Positions 5,837 to 59,179 of a DNA stretch of 64,000 bases are shown in pieces. A model generated the notes under the pieces. That model saw nothing but the letters and a program-made list of their open reading frames with translations. It searched no databases and was not told the origin of the DNA. Location of the stretch: assembly GCA_001803225.1 (NCBI GenBank), contig MHBF01000081.1:1-64000 (forward strand), in the 5' to 3' direction. Every line of letters begins with the position of its first letter. The first letter of the stretch is position 1. The translations under genes and the position numbers were made by a program. The DNA is from Lentisphaerae bacterium GWF2_44_16. GTDB taxonomy: Bacteria > Verrucomicrobiota > Lentisphaeria > Victivallales > GWF2-45-14.

Positions 5837-7967
5837 AGATTTGCCGTCCGGTGAAAAACATGAGGCTTTGAATTACAGTTATTTTCCGGCGAAGCATCAG
5901 GCCGTTATCTGGAGAAACTGGGAGCTTGTTCCTGTTGAAAGGCTTGCGGCAGTCCTGAAAACTTCTGAAAATGATATACTGAACGCCGCGGCGGAAATGG
6001 GATTGCCCGTGCCTCCCGACATTGAGGAAAAATGGCTTTCGCGGGGATATGTTACGATAATAAGGAACAACTGGCATCTGTTGCCTTATGAGCAGCTCCT
6101 CCAGCTACTGGGATGGACGCCTGAAAAAATGGCATATGTCCTGAAAGAGGAAGATTTTCTCTGGCATAAACTGGGATATTTAAAACCGCAGACAGAGTCT
6201 GTTTCTTTCAGAATACTGACGGAGGATGAGAAAAACAGGACCTCGGGAATAAAGGATATTGTCAGGAAAAATTTTTCTGTTCTAAAATTTACCGAGAAGC
6301 CTTTCGGCTTTCTGAAAGAATTTGAGAAACCGCTCAGGAAATCGCCTCCGCTAAAGAAAAAATTTGCTCCTCAATTTATTTATTCCTATTCGGCGATTTA
6401 CGGGGACGCGCTTTTGAATCCGGAACTTGATCCGTTTCCTGAAGGGATGCTGAAACGCTATGCGGACATGGGGGTATCAGGGGTATGGATGCAGGCTATA
6501 CTTTATACTCTTTGCCCTATGAAAAACGCTCCTGAACTTTCAAACGGCTGGGAGAAGCGTATAGAAAATTTGAAAAAACTGGTGGAAAAAGCAAGCAGAC
6601 ACGGCATAGGAATCTATCTTTATCTGAACGAACCGCGCGGAATGCAGGAGGCTTTTTATGAAAAATATCCAGAGTGGAAAGGAGTTTCTGAAAAATCTAC
6701 CGGAAATTACGCGATGTGCACGTCGAGGGAAAATGTTCTCGAAAATTTGAGAAACGCCTGCGCGCATGTTTTCAGGGAAGTTCCGAAGCTTGCCGGAGCC
6801 TTTACCATAAGCATGTCGGAAAACCTTACGCATTGCCATTCGAGAAGGAATGGCAACGAATGTCCGTTCTGTTCAACGCGTCCGGTACATGAGATTGTCG
6901 CGGAAGTGAATCGCGCCATAGAGGAAGGCGTTCATTCAGCGGCGCCATCAGCCGATGTAATTGTGTGGACTTGGGCATGGGACCCGGAATGGGCAAGAAA
7001 GGCTATTGACCTGCTTCCTGAAAAAGTAAAACTGATGTGCGTCAGCGAATGGGGCAAAAAAATAGAAATAGGCGGAGTGAAGAATAATATCCGCGATTAT
7101 TCAATTTCAAATCCTGGACCGAGTCCCGCGCATGTCGCGTTATGGGAACATGCTCGGAAAAGAGGTTTGAAGACCGTTGCCAAAGTGCAGTTGAACAATT
7201 CATGGGAATGTTCGGCGATACCATATATTCCGGTGCCGTACCTTGTCAAAGAACACCTGGACAATCTTGAGAAAGCCGGCATTGACGGGCTGATGCTCAG
7301 CTGGACGCTTGGCGGTTATCCAGGTGGAAATCTGGAACTTGTCAATAAAGATATTGAAACTCTGGCATTGGAAAAATTTGGGAAAAAAGCAATGTCGAAA
7401 ATACTTGAAGCATGGAAACTTTTCAGTGACGCGTTCAGGGATTTTCCCTTCCACATCGGAGTGCTTTATCAGGGACCGCAGAATGCGGGGCCTATGAATA
7501 TTCTTTTCAAAGAGAAAAGCGGCTACAAGTCTTCGATGGTTGGCTTTCCCTATGATGACCTTGACAGCTGGAGAGCGAATTATCCTGAAGACGTTTTTGA
7601 GAATCAATTCAAACTTCTCAGCGAAAGATGGAAGGAGGGACTTGATGTCCTTTTCAGCGTTGAATGTGAAATTGATGAAAAACATATGGCCGATTATACG
7701 GAACTGAAGAATGCCGCGGTCGGAGTATATTGTCATTTCAGGAGTGCGTATTTGCAGACGAGATTTATCCGCAATCGGAAAGATGAAGCCTCCAAAGCGG
7801 AAATAATGCTGATATTGGATGAGGAAAAGGAATTGGCAGTAACGCTTCATGAAATCGCGATGAAAGATTCGAGAATTGGTTTTGAGGCCACAAACCATTA
7901 TGCCTATACGGTCAATGACCTGAGAGAAAAAGTTTTGAACTGCGAATATCTTAAAAAGCAATTTTAA
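5826..7967 (+). CDS. Large TIM-barrel glycoside-hydrolase-like protein
   Basis: 713 residues; no named family can be assigned with certainty. The N-terminal ~130 residues form a helical domain with tryptophan-rich repeats (AVIWRNWELVPVERL and IRNNWHLLPYEQLLQLL are two copies). The central part (~190-560) reads like a (beta/alpha)8 glycosidase barrel: YADMGVSGVWMQAI, HGIGIYLYLNEPR, TISMSENLTHCHS, VIVWTWAWDPEW, KAGIDGLMLSWTLGGYP. Acidic residues in NEPR and SMSEN are candidate catalytic groups. A possible metal site CHSRRNGNECPFC lies near residue 335. GTG at 5826 is chosen because AGGGAG sits seven bases upstream; TTG at 5820 would be only one base from it. No signal peptide. Context suggests intracellular processing of a deacetylated oligosaccharide. 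Confidence 0.6.
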   Translation: MNIEDLPSGEKHEALNYSYFPAKHQAVIWRNWELVPVERLAAVLKTSENDILNAAAEMGLPVPPDIEEKWLSRGYVTIIRNNWHLLPYEQLLQLLGWTPEKMAYVLKEEDFLWHKLGYLKPQTESVSFRILTEDEKNRTSGIKDIVRKNFSVLKFTEKPFGFLKEFEKPLRKSPPLKKKFAPQFIYSYSAIYGDALLNPELDPFPEGMLKRYADMGVSGVWMQAILYTLCPMKNAPELSNGWEKRIENLKKLVEKASRHGIGIYLYLNEPRGMQEAFYEKYPEWKGVSEKSTGNYAMCTSRENVLENLRNACAHVFREVPKLAGAFTISMSENLTHCHSRRNGNECPFCSTRPVHEIVAEVNRAIEEGVHSAAPSADVIVWTWAWDPEWARKAIDLLPEKVKLMCVSEWGKKIEIGGVKNNIRDYSISNPGPSPAHVALWEHARKRGLKTVAKVQLNNSWECSAIPYIPVPYLVKEHLDNLEKAGIDGLMLSWTLGGYPGGNLELVNKDIETLALEKFGKKAMSKILEAWKLFSDAFRDFPFHIGVLYQGPQNAGPMNILFKEKSGYKSSMVGFPYDDLDSWRANYPEDVFENQFKLLSERWKEGLDVLFSVECEIDEKHMADYTELKNAAVGVYCHFRSAYLQTRFIRNRKDEASKAEIMLILDEEKELAVTLHEIAMKDSRIGFEATNHYAYTVNDLREKVLNCEYLKKQF

Positions 7968-7983
7968 ACATGGGCGGACAAAC

Positions 7984-8919
7984 ATGAAAGTTGATGAATT
8001 TATCAGGCTTCTGGATAAAGCGAAAAGACGCTGGCATCTTATCGGAGAGAATGAAAACGGGCTTATCGCGGTTTTAGATCTTGAGGGACGGCTTTTCACT
8101 TTCATAAAAGGCGAAATGCTGAGCCGTGTCAATGAGGAGGCTGTTTCGGAACAGTCAACAAGAGATAAATACCAGAACCCCGGAGGCGACGTATTGTGGC
8201 CCGCGCCTGAAGGGACATGTTTTGGTTATGAGTATTCGACGGGTAAATGGAGAGTTCCGCCGGGGATTACGGGAGCACGGTATCTCGTTAAAGAGAGCGG
8301 CGAAAATAGGGCCGTCATAGAGGCGGAAATAGATTTGATAAACAGCCGCGGTTTGGGATTGCCGTGCATTTTCAGGAGGGATATAAGGCTGAAACATGAA
8401 GCGCGTGCGATGACGGTCAATGTCGTGGAGACTATAATATATATAGGAAATAAAACGCTTTCAGCGGACGACTGCATGATGGCCCCGTGGTCCCTTTGCC
8501 AGTTTGACAGCGGAGAGGGAGCGGAGGTTGTTTTCCCGCATGTTGAAGGATCTGTGAGAGACCTTTATGAACCGAGTGACTCACAGCGTTTTCTCCGGGA
8601 TGGATTCTGCCATACAAAAACTGACGGCGCGCAGCGTTACCAGATAGCGATTGACGAAAGGGTTGACTGGATTGAATACCGCTATCCGGAACGGAATTTA
8701 AGAGTGCATCGAACAGCGCTTAAATGCGTTCCTGGTCTGAAATACATTGATATCGCGGATGCCGCACCAGAGAGCTGTCCTTCTGAAAAAGGCGTCAGGT
8801 TCAGCGTATACAGCGACATGAACAAATTCATGGAAATAGAAGCTGTAGGGGCATCTCCAGCTTTGATTTCAAACGGTATTTCGATGAGTGTGGAAGTTTA
8901 CACCAAATTTGCTTTCTAA
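7984..8919 (+). CDS. Hypothetical protein, probable galactose-mutarotase-like fold
   Basis: 311 residues, no signal peptide. The segments GRLFTFIKGEMLSRVNEE, NPGGDVLWPAPEG, TVNVVETIIYIGN and a run of beta-rich text recall the carbohydrate-binding, aldose-epimerase-like superfamily (DUF4380/DUF6786-type proteins carry a comparable NPGG..W..PEG block). The fold assignment is an inference from this pattern and the predicted all-beta character; no catalytic residues are assigned. It begins 16 bases after the glycosidase-like gene with a GGCGGA ribosome-binding site and is the last gene of the LacI-led carbohydrate cluster, so it probably acts on the same sugar. Confidence 0.5.
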   Translation: MKVDEFIRLLDKAKRRWHLIGENENGLIAVLDLEGRLFTFIKGEMLSRVNEEAVSEQSTRDKYQNPGGDVLWPAPEGTCFGYEYSTGKWRVPPGITGARYLVKESGENRAVIEAEIDLINSRGLGLPCIFRRDIRLKHEARAMTVNVVETIIYIGNKTLSADDCMMAPWSLCQFDSGEGAEVVFPHVEGSVRDLYEPSDSQRFLRDGFCHTKTDGAQRYQIAIDERVDWIEYRYPERNLRVHRTALKCVPGLKYIDIADAAPESCPSEKGVRFSVYSDMNKFMEIEAVGASPALISNGISMSVEVYTKFAF

Positions 8920-53960: not shown

Positions 53961-54036
53961 GCCAATGTAGCTCAGTCGGTAGAGCAATTCATTCGTAATG
54001 AATAGGTCGTCGGTTCGATTCCGACCATTGGCTCCA
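53961..54036 (+). tRNA. tRNA-Thr (anticodon CGT)
   Basis: 76 bases with encoded CCA. Acceptor arms GCCAATG/CATTGGC are fully paired, D stem GCTC/GAGC, anticodon stem ATTCA/TGAAT with loop TTCGTAA giving CGT (reads ACG, Thr), and T arm GTCGG-TTCGATT-CCGAC. It borders a degraded A+T-rich region on its 3' side, so it is a candidate integration site, although no repeat of its 3' end was recognised. Confidence 0.95.
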
Positions 54037-54330: not shown

Positions 54331-54430
54331 TCATGAAATCCAAGAAAAAGATATACATTGCAGTTTTTTTTTGCTTCGTAGTTTTGATATTATTTATTGC
54401 AAAAGGAGGTTGCGTGGCAATTGCAGGTAA
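54331..54430 (+). repeat. Direct repeat copy 1 (5' part of the small membrane-protein gene)
   Basis: Bases 54331-54430 match 55061-55160 with about four mismatches in 100, including the start codon and the entire TM-coding segment, while the rest of the two genes has diverged strongly. Confidence 0.85.
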
Positions 54431-54893
54431 GGAGATTACTGTAAATATAAATCCCAAGTTTGATCCAAGCAACTATAAGTGGACTAAGCTTGAAAAATTT
54501 TCAGACGGTAAGATTGCCCCAGTAGATGCTAAAATGGCAGATTTTTTTTGGAGAGAATTAAATATGCCATCACCGCCCCAAGGAACTAAAGATGGAATTA
54601 TGAATGTAAGTGTTTTTGAGGAACATGGTTTTTGTCTGCCACCTGGATTATCAATGCATTTTAAGCCACTTTTCTTCATGACCAAGAGGGCTGAAGTCAT
54701 AATCACAGATTACAAGAGCAAAGAGAAACTATTGTCTATTGTTTATCGCCGTGGCCTCTTCGCAAGTGTTGGGCTATGGTATGGCTACGGAGAAGCTGTG
54801 TTAAGTGGCCTACGAAAAGTTTTTCCCAAAGCCCAAACAGAAGCTGAAACTACAAGTTCCCCACCACCGCCAACTACGGGAAACAAGCATTGA
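54333..54893 (+). CDS. Membrane-anchored small protein, tandem paralogue 1
   Basis: 186 residues. A basic N-terminus (MKSKKKIY) and one hydrophobic segment (IAVFFCFVVLILFIA) are followed by an extracytoplasmic or cytoplasmic domain with the blocks ITVNINPKFDPSNYKW, FCLPPGLSMHFKPLFFM and KSKEKLLSIVYRRGLFAS. These blocks recur in the two genes downstream. No known family is recognised. The only Shine-Dalgarno-like run (AAAGGAGG, 54402-54409) is internal, inside the TM codons and four bases before an in-frame GTG at 54414. Frame stops at TGA 54891; the next open frame continues without a start, in the same phase, to a CWC-motif tail. Context: degraded RHS-type island, so an immunity-like role is one guess. 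Confidence 0.6.
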   Translation: MKSKKKIYIAVFFCFVVLILFIAKGGCVAIAGKEITVNINPKFDPSNYKWTKLEKFSDGKIAPVDAKMADFFWRELNMPSPPQGTKDGIMNVSVFEEHGFCLPPGLSMHFKPLFFMTKRAEVIITDYKSKEKLLSIVYRRGLFASVGLWYGYGEAVLSGLRKVFPKAQTEAETTSSPPPPTTGNKH

Positions 54894-55029
54894 AACTCAG
54901 TTCAATGTTCACAGAGCGTAAGTACATCGCAGAGATCATTGTCCATTTCCTTTACACAAAATAAATTTGCATTATATTTACCAAGATGGTTTTCTAAATG
55001 TTGGTGTACTTTTAAAGGCGGTTCCTAAT
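54894..55029 (+). pseudogene. Start-less tail with CWC motif, copy 1
   Basis: The frame directly after the TGA at 54891 remains open for 44 codons and ends ISFTQNKFALYL, RWFSKCWCTFKGGS, stop. The same motif ends the region before the third paralogue (55783-55860). About 17 of the last 27 positions agree. No start codon is visible, so it is a remnant or a readthrough extension of the upstream gene. Confidence 0.5.
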
Positions 55030-55060
55030 GAAAAACGACTATGCTATAAAGGAAATAAAA

Positions 55061-55160
55061 TCATGAAATCCAAGAAAAAGATATACATTGCAGTTTTTTT
55101 GTGCATCGTAGTTTTGATATTATTTATTGCAAAAGGAGGTTGCGTGGCAATCGCAGGCAA
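55061..55160 (+). repeat. Direct repeat copy 2
   Basis: Second copy of the ~100-base repeat that carries the start codon and TM codons; see 54331-54430. Confidence 0.85.
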
Positions 55161-55650
55161 AAAAACAACTATAAGTATAAGTCCAGATTTTAATCCCAAC
55201 GACTATAAATGGTGTGAAATAGAAGCAACTTTAAATGGGAAAATAGGTATGGTAGCTGTTGACCACACTGTAAGAAGCTTCTTTTGGGAAGATATGAAAA
55301 TGCCTTCTCCACCCAAAAGGGCTAAAGCTGGGATTTTGGATGTGAAAGTTTGTGAAGAACGAGGTTTTTGTTTGCCACCTAGACTATCAAGACATTTTAA
55401 ACCGATTTTTTTTATGCCCAAAAAGGTTGAAATCACAATCACAGATTCCAAAAACAAGAAAAAGTTGATATCTATTGTTTACCAGCGCGGACTTTTTGCC
55501 AGTGATGGAGCTTTTAAAGCTTGCATGGATGCCATTGAAGCAGCCTTGAGGGAAGCTTTTGCAAAAAGAAGCCAAACAGAAGCTGAAGAAAAACCAATGG
55601 GTAATCCATCACCCTCTCCAATTACAGAACAAAAAGTTACTGATAAATAA
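55063..55650 (+). CDS. Membrane-anchored small protein, tandem paralogue 2
   Basis: 195 residues. N-terminus nearly identical to paralogue 1 (MKSKKKIYIAVFLC, then VAIAG), followed by a diverged domain with ISISPDFNPNDYKW, FCLPPRLSRHFKPIFFM, SKNKKKLISIVYQRGLFAS and a charged tail. AAAGGA lies upstream of the ATG. Ends at TAA 55648; in-phase downstream codons lead without a start to the second CWC tail. Function unknown. The uneven divergence (nearly identical DNA for the first ~100 bases, strong divergence after) suggests gene conversion or recombination at the leader. Confidence 0.6.
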   Translation: MKSKKKIYIAVFLCIVVLILFIAKGGCVAIAGKKTTISISPDFNPNDYKWCEIEATLNGKIGMVAVDHTVRSFFWEDMKMPSPPKRAKAGILDVKVCEERGFCLPPRLSRHFKPIFFMPKKVEITITDSKNKKKLISIVYQRGLFASDGAFKACMDAIEAALREAFAKRSQTEAEEKPMGNPSPSPITEQKVTDK

Positions 55651-55860
55651 AAAATATATTTCTCAAATATAAAACCTTGTAGTTTTACATGGAATCCGTT
55701 TTACGGGTTTGGGGAACATGGAATGTATGAGCCAGGTGATGTAGCAGATGACTCGGATTCAAGAAGACAACAAGCTATTGCCTTTACATCGGGAAAATTT
55801 GATACATACTTGAGTGCATGGTTCCCCAAATGCTGGTGTGCATTCAAAAAAGGGAACTAG
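55651..55860 (+). pseudogene. Start-poor tail with CWC motif, copy 2
   Basis: Open frame in phase with the preceding stop, beginning with KIYFSNIKPCSFTWNPFYG and ending IAFTSGKFDTYL, AWFPKCWCAFKKGN, stop. A possible start ATG at 55725 (GGGG eight bases upstream) would give a 45-residue peptide. Homologous to 54894-55029. May be a toxin C-terminus remnant or a lost C-terminal extension of paralogue 2. Confidence 0.45.
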
Positions 55861-55916
55861 GATATTTGTTAGTTTATAAAGAGATACATAATTCAAAAAG
55901 GAAATTCACACGGAGT

Positions 55917-56483
55917 ATGAAAAGAAAAACAATGTATTTTATAATTTCAAGTGTTTTGGTATTACTTGTATTAATACTTGTATTTTACCTCACCTCTTCT
56001 GGAAAAGAAATCGCAATATACGTCAACCCGGACTTTGTTCCCAACTCTTATAAATATTTTAAGATGGACGATAAGAGTGACATTAATTTACCTTTAACTT
56101 TTGATATAACACTTTTTTTTGAAAAAGACTTAAAAATGGCGTTTCCTACCAAACACGCAAAAAAAAATAAGGTTATGAAAGTGGAAATTTATACGGAACG
56201 AGGCCTTTGTCTGCCTCCTGGATTGGGACATTTTACGGTGAGTTTCTTTATGACTAAAAAGGTTAAAGTAATAATAACAGATAATAAAAGTAAAGAAATA
56301 TTAGTATCTATTAATTATCACCGGAAACTGTTTCTCCTTGAAGGAAGTTTCAAAAATTGTAGAAAAACTATATTAACAGCCTTACGGAATGCATTTGAAA
56401 CCGCCGAAAAGAATGTCCGAGCCAAAGCGGAAAATCCAGCAATAAGTAATTCATCGTCCTCTCCTAACAGAGAACAGTTATGA
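55917..56483 (+). CDS. Membrane-anchored small protein, tandem paralogue 3
   Basis: 188 residues. Different leader (MKRKTMYFIISSVLVLLVLI) but the same domain: IAIYVNPDFVPNSYKYF, LCLPPGLGHFTVSFFM, NKSKEILVSINYHRKL. ATG 55917 has CGGAG just upstream and AAAAAGG slightly farther. The 3' end overlaps the frame of an RHS fragment, the junction lying near 56470. More diverged than paralogues 1 and 2 and without the near-identical leader. Confidence 0.6.
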   Translation: MKRKTMYFIISSVLVLLVLILVFYLTSSGKEIAIYVNPDFVPNSYKYFKMDDKSDINLPLTFDITLFFEKDLKMAFPTKHAKKNKVMKVEIYTERGLCLPPGLGHFTVSFFMTKKVKVIITDNKSKEILVSINYHRKLFLLEGSFKNCRKTILTALRNAFETAEKNVRAKAENPAISNSSSSPNREQL

Positions 56484-57074
56484 ATACGACAAGAAAGGCT
56501 ATGTCAGCTCCATGAAAGGCCCGGGCTATCTTGAGAACCGTACTTATGACAAGGGCGGACGACTGGTCTCAAAAACGCTTAACGGGAAACTTCTCTGCGC
56601 CTACGAATACGACAATATGAACCGCAGAATCAAAGTTGATATAAACGGCATCAAATGGGAATACAAATACGATGAATTCGGGCAGCTCGTTTCGGCTAAA
56701 TCCTCAGACGGAAAAGCTATGATTACAGTTACGATAAAATCGGCAACAGCCTTGCTTTCAGGGGAAATGCTTATGCATTCAACAAACTCAAGCAGTTCGC
56801 AAATCCGAGCTTCAAATACGATGAATACGGCAATATGACCGCCGCCCCCAACGGCTGGAAATATACCTGGGACGCGCAGAACAGGCTCATGAAGGCTGAA
56901 AAGGGCGACAAAAAACTTGAATTTGCGTATGATTTCATGAGCAGGAGGACAGGCCGGAAAGTTTTTGAGGACGGGAAACTCACAGCCGATGAGAAATTTG
57001 TTTTTGACAGCTTTAATATGGCGCTGAAATACGATATGCTCAACTCATCTTCGGATAGTGTTTGCCAACCATAG
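56470..57074 (+). pseudogene. RHS/YD-repeat protein fragment, frameshifted
   Basis: RHS-type YD repeats are readable: SYEYDKKGYVSSM, RTYDKGGRLVSK, YEYDNMNRRIKVDINGIKWEYKYDEFG, then after a one-base shift in the AAAA run at 56712-56715 the repeat resumes as SYDYSYDKIGNS and YDEYGNMTAA, YTWDAQNRLMK. The piece lacks an N-terminus and a start, and stops at 57074 without the conserved core end (DPxGL) or a toxin domain. It is a remnant of a polymorphic RHS-type protein adjacent to three small membrane-protein genes. Confidence 0.75.
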
Positions 57075-57098: not shown

Positions 57099-57383
57099 TT
57101 ACTGTATAGGAGGTTTTTGCGGCGGCGGCTCATTCTGTCCACCGGCGGCTTTTTTCAGTTCGTCTTCATCCAGTTCCTCGTCAGTTGACGGAAAACTTAT
57201 GTTCCTGTTTTCGGTGAATTCTTCAGCACTGAAAAAGTCAAGTATATTTATGTGGTCATGGGTTTCCCTTATAAAAGTCCTGATGTTTTCATCACTTTCC
57301 TGAAGCCATTCCAGAAGGCGTTTGTTCTCTTCTGAAGAGCATTCATTATGAAGGTAGCTTTCAATAATTTTCATGATATTCAT
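57099..57383 (-). CDS. Small protein downstream of the ECF sigma factor, probable regulator
   Basis: 94 residues. The N-terminus (IESYLHNECSSEENKRLLEWLQESDENIRTF) resembles the short helical domain of FecR/anti-sigma proteins; the C-terminus is acidic then proline-rich (QNEPPPQKPPIQ). No membrane segment, so it may be a soluble anti-sigma factor. ATG 57383 is chosen since GGAGG lies eight bases upstream; ATG 57398 has nothing. Sixteen bases after the sigma gene on the same strand. Anti-sigma activity is inferred from context and the N-terminal pattern only. Confidence 0.55.
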   Translation of the reverse strand: MNIMKIIESYLHNECSSEENKRLLEWLQESDENIRTFIRETHDHINILDFFSAEEFTENRNISFPSTDEELDEDELKKAAGGQNEPPPQKPPIQ

Positions 57384-57399
57384 CGTTGTTTCCTCCATC

Positions 57400-57918
57400 T
57401 TATAGCGCGCTCATTCTCTGTTCAATGCATTTTTTCAGAGACCCTCTGATTCTTGAGACGGCAGTTCTGGCCGCTCCCGGAGCGATGCCGAGTTCAGATG
57501 CCGCTTTTTCAAAATTCATCGATTCCTTATAGCGAAGCTGAAGAAGGCTCAGGTTCTTTCCTTTGAGCTCTTCCATGCATTTTCTGAGGGCGGCGCTGCG
57601 TTCATCCAGTTCGTCAGTCATCTCCTCATGCAGGTCGGCAATGCGGTCAATTATGGGTTCCAGCGGGATAAACGGTGTCCGCGCGAAGTTTCTGCGGCTT
57701 CCTAATATCTCGTATTTGGCTATGCCTATTACCCATGAAAGAAAAGAACGGCTTTCCTCATACCGGTCAAATTTTTTCAAGGCCGCCAGCGCTGTATTCT
57801 GGATTATATCATCATGTTCAGAACGGTTCGGGAGCATTGAGAAGACATAACTTGAAACGGTCGGCATAGCGGCTGTCCAGAGGATGGTGAATCTTTTGTT
57901 TTTTTCATCGATGTCCAT
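57400..57918 (-). CDS. ECF-type sigma-70 factor
   Basis: 172 residues. Region 2 (SYVFSMLPNRSEHDDIIQNTALAALKKFDRY, RSFLSWVIGIAKYEIL) and region 4 (LQLRYKESMNFEKAASELGIAPGAARTAVSRIRGSL) are both present. The sequence is of the PVC sub-type often found with FecR-like partners. A promoter TTGCCA-N17-TAAATT (57987-58015, minus strand) lies upstream and AAAGGG nine bases before the ATG. The adjacent small protein is the likely partner. Targets unknown; it borders the RHS island. Confidence 0.9.
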   Translation of the reverse strand: MDIDEKNKRFTILWTAAMPTVSSYVFSMLPNRSEHDDIIQNTALAALKKFDRYEESRSFLSWVIGIAKYEILGSRRNFARTPFIPLEPIIDRIADLHEEMTDELDERSAALRKCMEELKGKNLSLLQLRYKESMNFEKAASELGIAPGAARTAVSRIRGSLKKCIEQRMSAL

Positions 57919-58015: not shown

Positions 58016-58051
58016 TAGGAATTGGGAAAAAGATTGCTTTATTGTTTTCAT

Positions 58052-59179
58052 ATGGAAAAGCGGATGGATGTAAAAGTGACTGATGATTTCAGACGTTCTG
58101 TTCTCTCCGGACTCGGGATACCCGGGCCTGCGGCTGAAGAACTTATAGAATACAATAAGAATGTTTTTAAATTTCCGGAAAGAGGAAATGTTATAAGGCT
58201 GCCCTTGACGGACGAGGCGTTTGTTTCAGACTGGATTGAATACAGCCAAATCATTGAGAAGGCGCATTCCTTTATGGCATTGAAAGACAAGCTCATCGAG
58301 CTCAACTTCCCGGTAGTGGACGGAATAAGCAAAACACCCGGGTATAAAGCCACACAGGAAAAAGGTTTTGAAGCTTTAGAACGCGATGCCGAAGAGGGGT
58401 TGCGCCTTGATGCCCCTGAAAAGATAAAGATATATCTGCATCAGACAATCGCCGGAAAAATTCCCGTTATAAGCGTATCCGAAAGGGACGATTTCAAGAG
58501 CATAGTTTCGGCGTTGACTTGCAGGAATGAACCGGTCGAACTGCCCGCATCCGTCGGGGCTTTTGCGATAAGCGGATACAAAAACCGGGACAGACTGGCA
58601 AAAATATCCGGCAGTTTCCTTTTCGGGAAAATACCGAAAGAACTTTACCAGGATAAATTCATCATCATAAGCAGAGGCTTTTACAGCGGGATAGCTCCGG
58701 GGAAAATCGGAATGACGGAAACAGAGTGGCTGGAAAAATCAATGAAGATAAGGATTGAACACGAAGCCGCCCATTATGTGATGGAAAGACTCTTCGGTTC
58801 AATGCGCAAACGTCTGCTTGATGAAATCATAGCTGATTACATGGGTATAACCGCAGTCGAAAAATCATACAGTGCCCGGCTTTTTCTTGATTTTATGGGT
58901 ATTGACAGGGGGACTCTTTCGGAAACAGGAAAAGCAAGAATTGAGTATTACAGGGGCGAGCTTGGAGATGAAGCTTTCAACGCTCTGAAAAAGCTTGCGG
59001 AACTTGCGTCGTTAAATATTGAAACTCTTGACGCGGAGATGAGAAATCACGTTAAGACACGTTTCCATTTTATGCTTGCTTTGTCGCGTCTGAGCGTCGA
59101 GGAAATTGCGTCCGGCGATTGCGGGCGTTTGCTGGAAAATGCTTTCAGAATGAATGAACAGCTAATGCAATACGTCTGA
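58052..59179 (+). CDS. Hypothetical zincin-like protein (HEAAH)
   Basis: 375 residues. The motif RIEHEAAHYVMERLFG (~residue 243) has the HExxH zinc-protease pattern, with DEIIADYMG about 20 residues later giving the further acid ligand typical of gluzincins. Signal peptide and membrane segments are absent. No family is recognised, so cytoplasmic metalloprotease is the best guess. Start uncertain: ATG 58052 is used, with in-frame TTG 58022 and ATG 58064 as alternatives. It is divergent from the sigma factor gene and converges on the leftward small lipoprotein gene. Confidence 0.55.
   Translation: MEKRMDVKVTDDFRRSVLSGLGIPGPAAEELIEYNKNVFKFPERGNVIRLPLTDEAFVSDWIEYSQIIEKAHSFMALKDKLIELNFPVVDGISKTPGYKATQEKGFEALERDAEEGLRLDAPEKIKIYLHQTIAGKIPVISVSERDDFKSIVSALTCRNEPVELPASVGAFAISGYKNRDRLAKISGSFLFGKIPKELYQDKFIIISRGFYSGIAPGKIGMTETEWLEKSMKIRIEHEAAHYVMERLFGSMRKRLLDEIIADYMGITAVEKSYSARLFLDFMGIDRGTLSETGKARIEYYRGELGDEAFNALKKLAELASLNIETLDAEMRNHVKTRFHFMLALSRLSVEEIASGDCGRLLENAFRMNEQLMQYV

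Follow-up and report, generated by a model that had tools for sequence, protein, structure and literature searches.

The locus described here raises the question of why three similar small-protein genes alternate with two short frames that lack a start and are followed by a piece of an RHS gene. It lies in a stretch of 64,000 nucleotides from Lentisphaerae bacterium GWF2_44_16 (contig MHBF01000081.1, positions 1 to 64,000), the whole of which is called the window below. A preliminary description, made from the DNA letters, had suggested an orphan toxin/immunity-like array in an RHS remnant island. The analysis leads us to interpret the locus, with considerable confidence, as a decayed RHS polymorphic-toxin locus that has turned into an orphan immunity array.

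Composition of the island

On the plus strand, the order was paralogue 1, tail 1, paralogue 2, tail 2, paralogue 3 and a frameshifted RHS remnant (Table 1). The window thus contained three candidate orphan immunity genes together with three scraps, two from toxins and one from an RHS gene. The GC content of the island was low, at 0.32-0.40 compared with mostly 0.42-0.49 in the surroundings, and the island adjoins a tRNA-Thr gene. No second copy of the tRNA-Thr 3' end was found in the window, nor was a tRNA-derived direct repeat bounding the island. The scrap between the tRNA and paralogue 1 had no Pfam or NCBIfam match and resembles, by eye and unconfirmed, a transposase C-terminus. No secretion-system genes were recognised in the island part of the window, and the promoter and terminator scans gave results near the chance level, with 12 promoter-like sites found and 8.9 expected. 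The island is bordered on the minus strand (57099-57918) by a sigma-70-family factor (Sigma70_r2, E 6.4e-10) and a 99 aa protein, and a DUF7005 protein of unknown function (58022-59179; Pfam E 8e-100) also adjoins it.

Table 1. Features of the island, in window positions
Feature	Position	Strand	Basis or remark
tRNA-Thr (CGT)	53961..54036	+	Directly 5' of the island; ARAGORN
Open-frame scrap, 66 aa	54084..54284	+	Between the tRNA and paralogue 1
Candidate orphan immunity paralogue 1, 186 aa, N-terminal anchor, predicted exported	54333..54893	+	Homologous to the L014 immunity gene
Toxin tail 1, final ~34 residues of the RHS C-terminal toxin domain	54921..55028	+	hhalign to profile A6, E 6.3e-9
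Candidate orphan immunity paralogue 2, 195 aa	55063..55650	+	Paralogue comparison; AF2 model
Toxin tail 2, final ~65 residues of the RHS C-terminal toxin domain	55666..55860	+	hhalign E 1.6e-16
Candidate orphan immunity paralogue 3, 188 aa	55917..56483	+	Paralogue comparison
RHS core remnant with a frameshift near 56715-56721	56470..57074	+	YD repeats E 1.6e-8; Pfam RHS_repeat E 3.2e-9

Paralogues 2 and 3 shared 59% and 39% identity, respectively, with paralogue 1, and no further copies of the family were found in the 5.16 Mb draft assembly. Searches of Pfam and NCBIfam with the paralogues and the tails returned nothing real. The dN/dS values between the paralogues were 0.28 (bootstrap 0.16-0.43), 0.41 and 0.57, and on this range the three genes look to be under purifying selection. 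The AF2 model of paralogue 2 (pLDDT 75) contained an N-terminal helix and a PelC-like domain, for which Foldseek returned a PelC match (E 2.0e-4); the predicted fold is common to PelC, LptE and TraT. From the model, the paralogues are predicted to hold a PelC-like domain in the periplasm through an N-terminal hydrophobic anchor. Furthermore, the first 36 codons of paralogues 1 (54333-54440) and 2 (55063-55170) were 92% identical at the DNA level versus 65% elsewhere (Fisher p 4.6e-9), and the identity fell 5' of the ATG. To judge from this pattern, the anchor segment has probably undergone recent gene conversion or exchange.

The two tails were homologous to each other (E 1.9e-8), and their translations end with ...LYLPRWFSKCWCTFKGGS before the stop codon in tail 1 (54921-55028) and run from SFTWNPFYGFGEHGMYEPGD... 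to YLSAWFPKCWCAFKKGN before the stop codon in tail 2 (55666-55860). These results confirmed the three paralogues and the pair of homologous start-less KCWC tails of the preliminary description. The pattern W..KC.C occurred twice in the six frames of the window, compared with 0.02 times per mononucleotide shuffle, and beyond tails 1 and 2 there was no other convincing tail match in the 5.16 Mb assembly. Tail 1 lies 35 bases 5' of paralogue 2, and tail 2 lies 57 bases 5' of paralogue 3. Both tails are indeed in phase with the stop codon of the preceding paralogue, as had been noted; the phase means little, since two in-frame tails have a 1-in-9 chance.

The RHS fragment reported after paralogue 3 proved to be real and frameshifted; besides the YD repeats in Table 1, it matched the RHS proteins of two related loci (L011 and L014) with E 5.2e-15. 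It ends before the core end and the toxin domain. Its homology begins at ~56470, overlapping the end of paralogue 3 (56483), and therefore the last codons of paralogue 3 sit on RHS-derived DNA read in another frame. In an RHS search of the 5.16 Mb draft, the remnant was the sole match and no intact RHS or toxin copy was found; an intact RHS gene could be missing from the assembly, because the draft is 91% complete.

RHS toxins of relatives and the genes that follow them

The origin of the tails was traced in related genomes. When 100 genomes were searched with tail 2, two RHS open frames were returned outside the window, on G033:C112 (E 1.7e-9) and G083:C58 (E 8.6e-9). The former, locus L014, matches contig CAIQLG010000112 of an uncultured Lentisphaerae bacterium. 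Its RHS protein possessed an Rhs_assc_core domain (E 1.4e-19) and ended in a 208 aa domain, the last ~68 residues of which matched tail 2. In the genome profile search, tail 2 was recovered with E 7.0e-13, and the toxin homology there begins at ~55663-55666, which is 13-16 bases past the stop codon of paralogue 2. Altogether, eight relatives (L014, L012, L015, L016/L020 and L021-L024) carried the toxin domain in frame after the RHS core end, where a self-cleavage motif of the DxxGL type was present, as defined in previous studies (PMC8636562, PMC9637101). Fusion of KCWC ends to RHS proteins, the search put forward in the preliminary description, was thus found. Among the members, L015 belongs to Verrucomicrobia UBA6082, and L016/L020 belongs to Lentisphaerae LJ_bin-4696 with an RHS protein of 1820 aa.

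Several observations were made on single loci. In L021-L024 (genus g78 of the same phylum), the gene after the RHS open frames of 1892-2139 aa encoded a secreted protein of ~340 aa. In the draw of 59 g78 genomes, the toxin domain was intact in 3 and decayed in 2, and L021/G260 was taken from the phylum draw. In L012/L045 (G083:C58), which adjoins an IS3-like transposase, the toxin domain and a downstream propeller-like protein share one frame without a stop, possibly a fusion or a sequence error. A further toxin match in G091 (L013) was discarded owing to its non-RHS context.

The gene just after an RHS toxin is, as a general rule, its immunity gene. In L014, the toxin stop codon overlapped by 11 bases the start of a 177 aa lipoprotein-like gene, the product of which was homologous to the window paralogues (E 8.9e-10; hhalign E 2.9e-15). 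Because a paralogue homologue overlaps the toxin end in this locus, the small proteins of the window are very likely an immunity family, as judged from sequence. A secreted or anchored small protein directly 3' of the toxin end was present in L014, L015, L016 and L021-L024. In the intact loci examined, the toxin end and the next gene commonly shared ATGA or a longer overlap, and every intact toxin seen had an ORF downstream. Among 137 genomes of the order, the toxin domain was strong in 3 and the immunity family was full-length in 3, with co-occurrence in 2 of the 137 (P about 0.001). The same toxin domain also had other downstream partners, namely propeller-like proteins (L012, L021-L024) and other secreted proteins (L015, L016). 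The pairing with the window family is accordingly drawn from L014 as the only such intact locus and from three scraps, because most other loci differ downstream. No description of this toxin-immunity pairing was found in the literature searched.

An independent genome, G095, carried three copies of the immunity family. Upstream of the first copy was a KCWC scrap ending with ...FDKWLSKCWCSYFNKIYAGVEL and a stop codon, the TGA of which overlapped the ATG of the immunity gene (ATGA). The same genome encoded a divergent RHS toxin (SLHPLQDYYAH ... KKCCKC); an ankyrin lipoprotein came next, and one similar to it stood after one of the immunity-family copies. Weak matches of the immunity profile in G069, G085, G087 and G091 covered the N-terminal ~60-70 positions only and were discarded as unrelated proteins of ~400 aa.

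Predicted metal site and enzyme class of the toxin

In the eight intact domains (alignments A8 and A9), W1, H6, D43, H53, H100, D104, H108 and H157 were invariant, and position 161 was acidic (E/D) in all eight. The five invariant His residues were the only invariant His of the domain. The zinc ligands of the PLC/P1 nuclease superfamily comprise one Trp, three Asp and five His (PMC4144908), and the toxin domain had, in order, all nine ligand types (1 Trp, 5 His and 3 acids) of the PLC/P1-nuclease/Het-C superfamily. Het-C has been described as a relative of PLC and S1-P1 that serves as a toxin domain (PMC3482391). Family searches gave fainter signals: VWA7_N matched weakly in 8/8 members (E 2.2e-4, below its cut-off), Zn_dep_PLPC gave E 0.011 against the toxin domain, and no Pfam family matched above its cut-off. 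The PDB sequence search with the domain, as a single sequence and as a profile, returned nothing. Foldseek with the toxin model gave no significant match, with two zinc PLC structures low in the list. In hhalign of the toxin profile against two zinc PLC homologues of the order, LGxxxHxxxD was aligned, with scores no better than the best shuffle. The toxin of the relatives is likely a periplasmic or membrane hydrolase of predicted activity, with lipid or nucleic acid as its possible substrate, and the anchored PelC-like model of the immunity protein favours a periplasmic or membrane target.

The position of the Trp suggests a link to toxin release. In RHS proteins, self-cleavage after the second DPxGL motif frees the toxin (PMC8636562, PMC9637101), and mature S1 nuclease begins with the Trp, whose main chain binds zinc (PMC5201275). 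All eight relatives had the Trp directly after the self-cleavage motif, as GL|W or GK|W; its N-terminal position depends on the predicted cleavage. Since the Trp comes right after the motif, RHS self-cleavage may complete the metal site: in the intact relatives it would leave the Trp at the N-terminus to serve as a zinc ligand, and cleavage would both free the toxin and complete its active site. The immunity proteins would, in turn, neutralise in the periplasm a metal-dependent hydrolase of the PLC/P1 nuclease/Het-C superfamily, delivered by neighbours. A combined model, which we consider possible though somewhat short of probable, is that self-cleavage makes the Trp a zinc ligand, with the caged enzyme incomplete until it is cut, that the PelC-like proteins are a new immunity family that blocks the enzyme in the periplasm, and that the window holds an immunity-only shield.

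Tail 2 included the last predicted metal-ligand pair (EHGMYE). Of the nine predicted ligands, it retained two and tail 1 none, so the tails themselves would not be toxins and nothing in the window should be toxic.

Proposed decay of the locus and competing readings

Each unit of the island would once have consisted of an RHS core with its toxin domain, followed by an immunity gene, as is shown by homology and gene order. Deletions would then have taken the RHS core together with the toxin's N-terminal portion, leaving the toxin 3' end directly 5' of the immunity gene, which stayed intact. Where immunity translation is spared, a deletion would tend to leave a tail, because the toxin end usually overlaps the immunity start, and this would explain why the tails have no start. 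Toxin scraps or broken toxins 5' of open ORFs were found in the window (two), G095, G269 (L025), G218 (L026) and G156. In G218, RHS repeats were joined directly to the last ~50 toxin residues, and in G156 there were stops within the toxin and a 338 aa ORF downstream. Open and apparently selected paralogues would fit the retention of immunity after toxin loss. The array in the preliminary description was supported, in that the tail is the RHS C-terminus in relatives and an immunity homologue comes next in L014; it needs correcting on one point, since what is intact in the window is the immunity side alone.

The tails might owe their persistence to a role of their own, for instance as translational leader, as promoter or as a small peptide aiding expression of the downstream immunity gene. 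Their closeness to paralogues 2 and 3 (35 and 57 bases), the overlap of the toxin end with the next start in relatives, and the recurrence of such scraps 5' of open ORFs in G000, G095, G269 and G218 agree with this. However, neither tail has a clear start, the promoter-like sites were about as frequent as expected by chance, and synonymous change between the tails is saturated and gives no reading of selection, and we regard such a function as unlikely. It is compatible with the decay of a toxin locus, since it concerns only the persistence of the tails. That the small proteins are lipoprotein-like passengers with another role, present in an RHS island by chance, is improbable. PelC, LptE and TraT share the predicted fold yet have other roles, and none of the three copies in G095 adjoins an intact toxin from the close family; against this stand the 11-base overlap with the toxin gene in L014, the KCWC scrap 5' of a G095 copy, the repetition of the window's small proteins beside toxin scraps, and the general rule on genes that follow RHS toxins. 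Finally, that the tails represent C-terminal extensions which the small proteins have lost, or readthrough products, the alternative first raised on account of their phase, is scarcely credible despite both being in frame (a 1-in-9 chance), because every intact tail homologue is an RHS C-terminus upstream of the next gene, the L014 homologue follows such an end, and no fusion of a tail to a small protein, the finding that would have favoured it, occurred in 137 genomes of the order or 388 of the phylum.

Orphan immunity arrays and displaced RHS tips are already known, and this locus joins them. In Enterobacteriaceae, RHS C-terminal tips are displaced sequentially, which gives arrays of dissociated RHS ends and fragments (PMC2935791); here, only the last 34-65 toxin residues are left, in another phylum and with no intact RHS in the assembly. 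In the T6SS orphan immunity arrays of Vibrio cholerae, effectors were lost successively and immunity genes were retained, with displaced effector 3' ends (PMC5361080). The arrays there contain several immunity families, whereas the window has three paralogues of one family. Tox-HET-C resembles the present toxin in HxxxDxxxH with further His and acidic residues and in a predicted relation to zinc PLC/S1-P1 (PMC3482391). It differs in its reported carriers, which are T2SS, T6SS and PVC-type rather than an RHS C-terminus; the KC.C end and the Trp at the cleavage site are features of the toxin here, whose membership is putative by profile scores. The working model also resembles the Tle/Tli pairs (PMC9860674) in a membrane-directed toxin with an envelope lipoprotein as immunity; the toxin here is of a different fold class, its phospholipase activity is putative, and it is not claimed as a member.

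Read as a decayed toxin locus, the island would be a legible fossil of a toxin locus becoming a shield, in which the toxin is lost from the 5' side and the immunity genes persist, and the tail would remain because the toxin end overlaps or abuts the immunity start. In addition, the analysis identified a family of RHS toxins, and a candidate family of periplasmic immunity proteins, in Lentisphaerae and Verrucomicrobia relatives, and the completion of a zinc site by RHS self-cleavage is raised as a testable idea.

In L016, homology of the lipoproteins to the window paralogues was not supported by comparison. At positions 7517-8397 of the same locus, 3' of an intact RHS-immunity pair, there was a second RHS scrap followed by another lipoprotein of ~180 aa, which is probably another orphan cassette.
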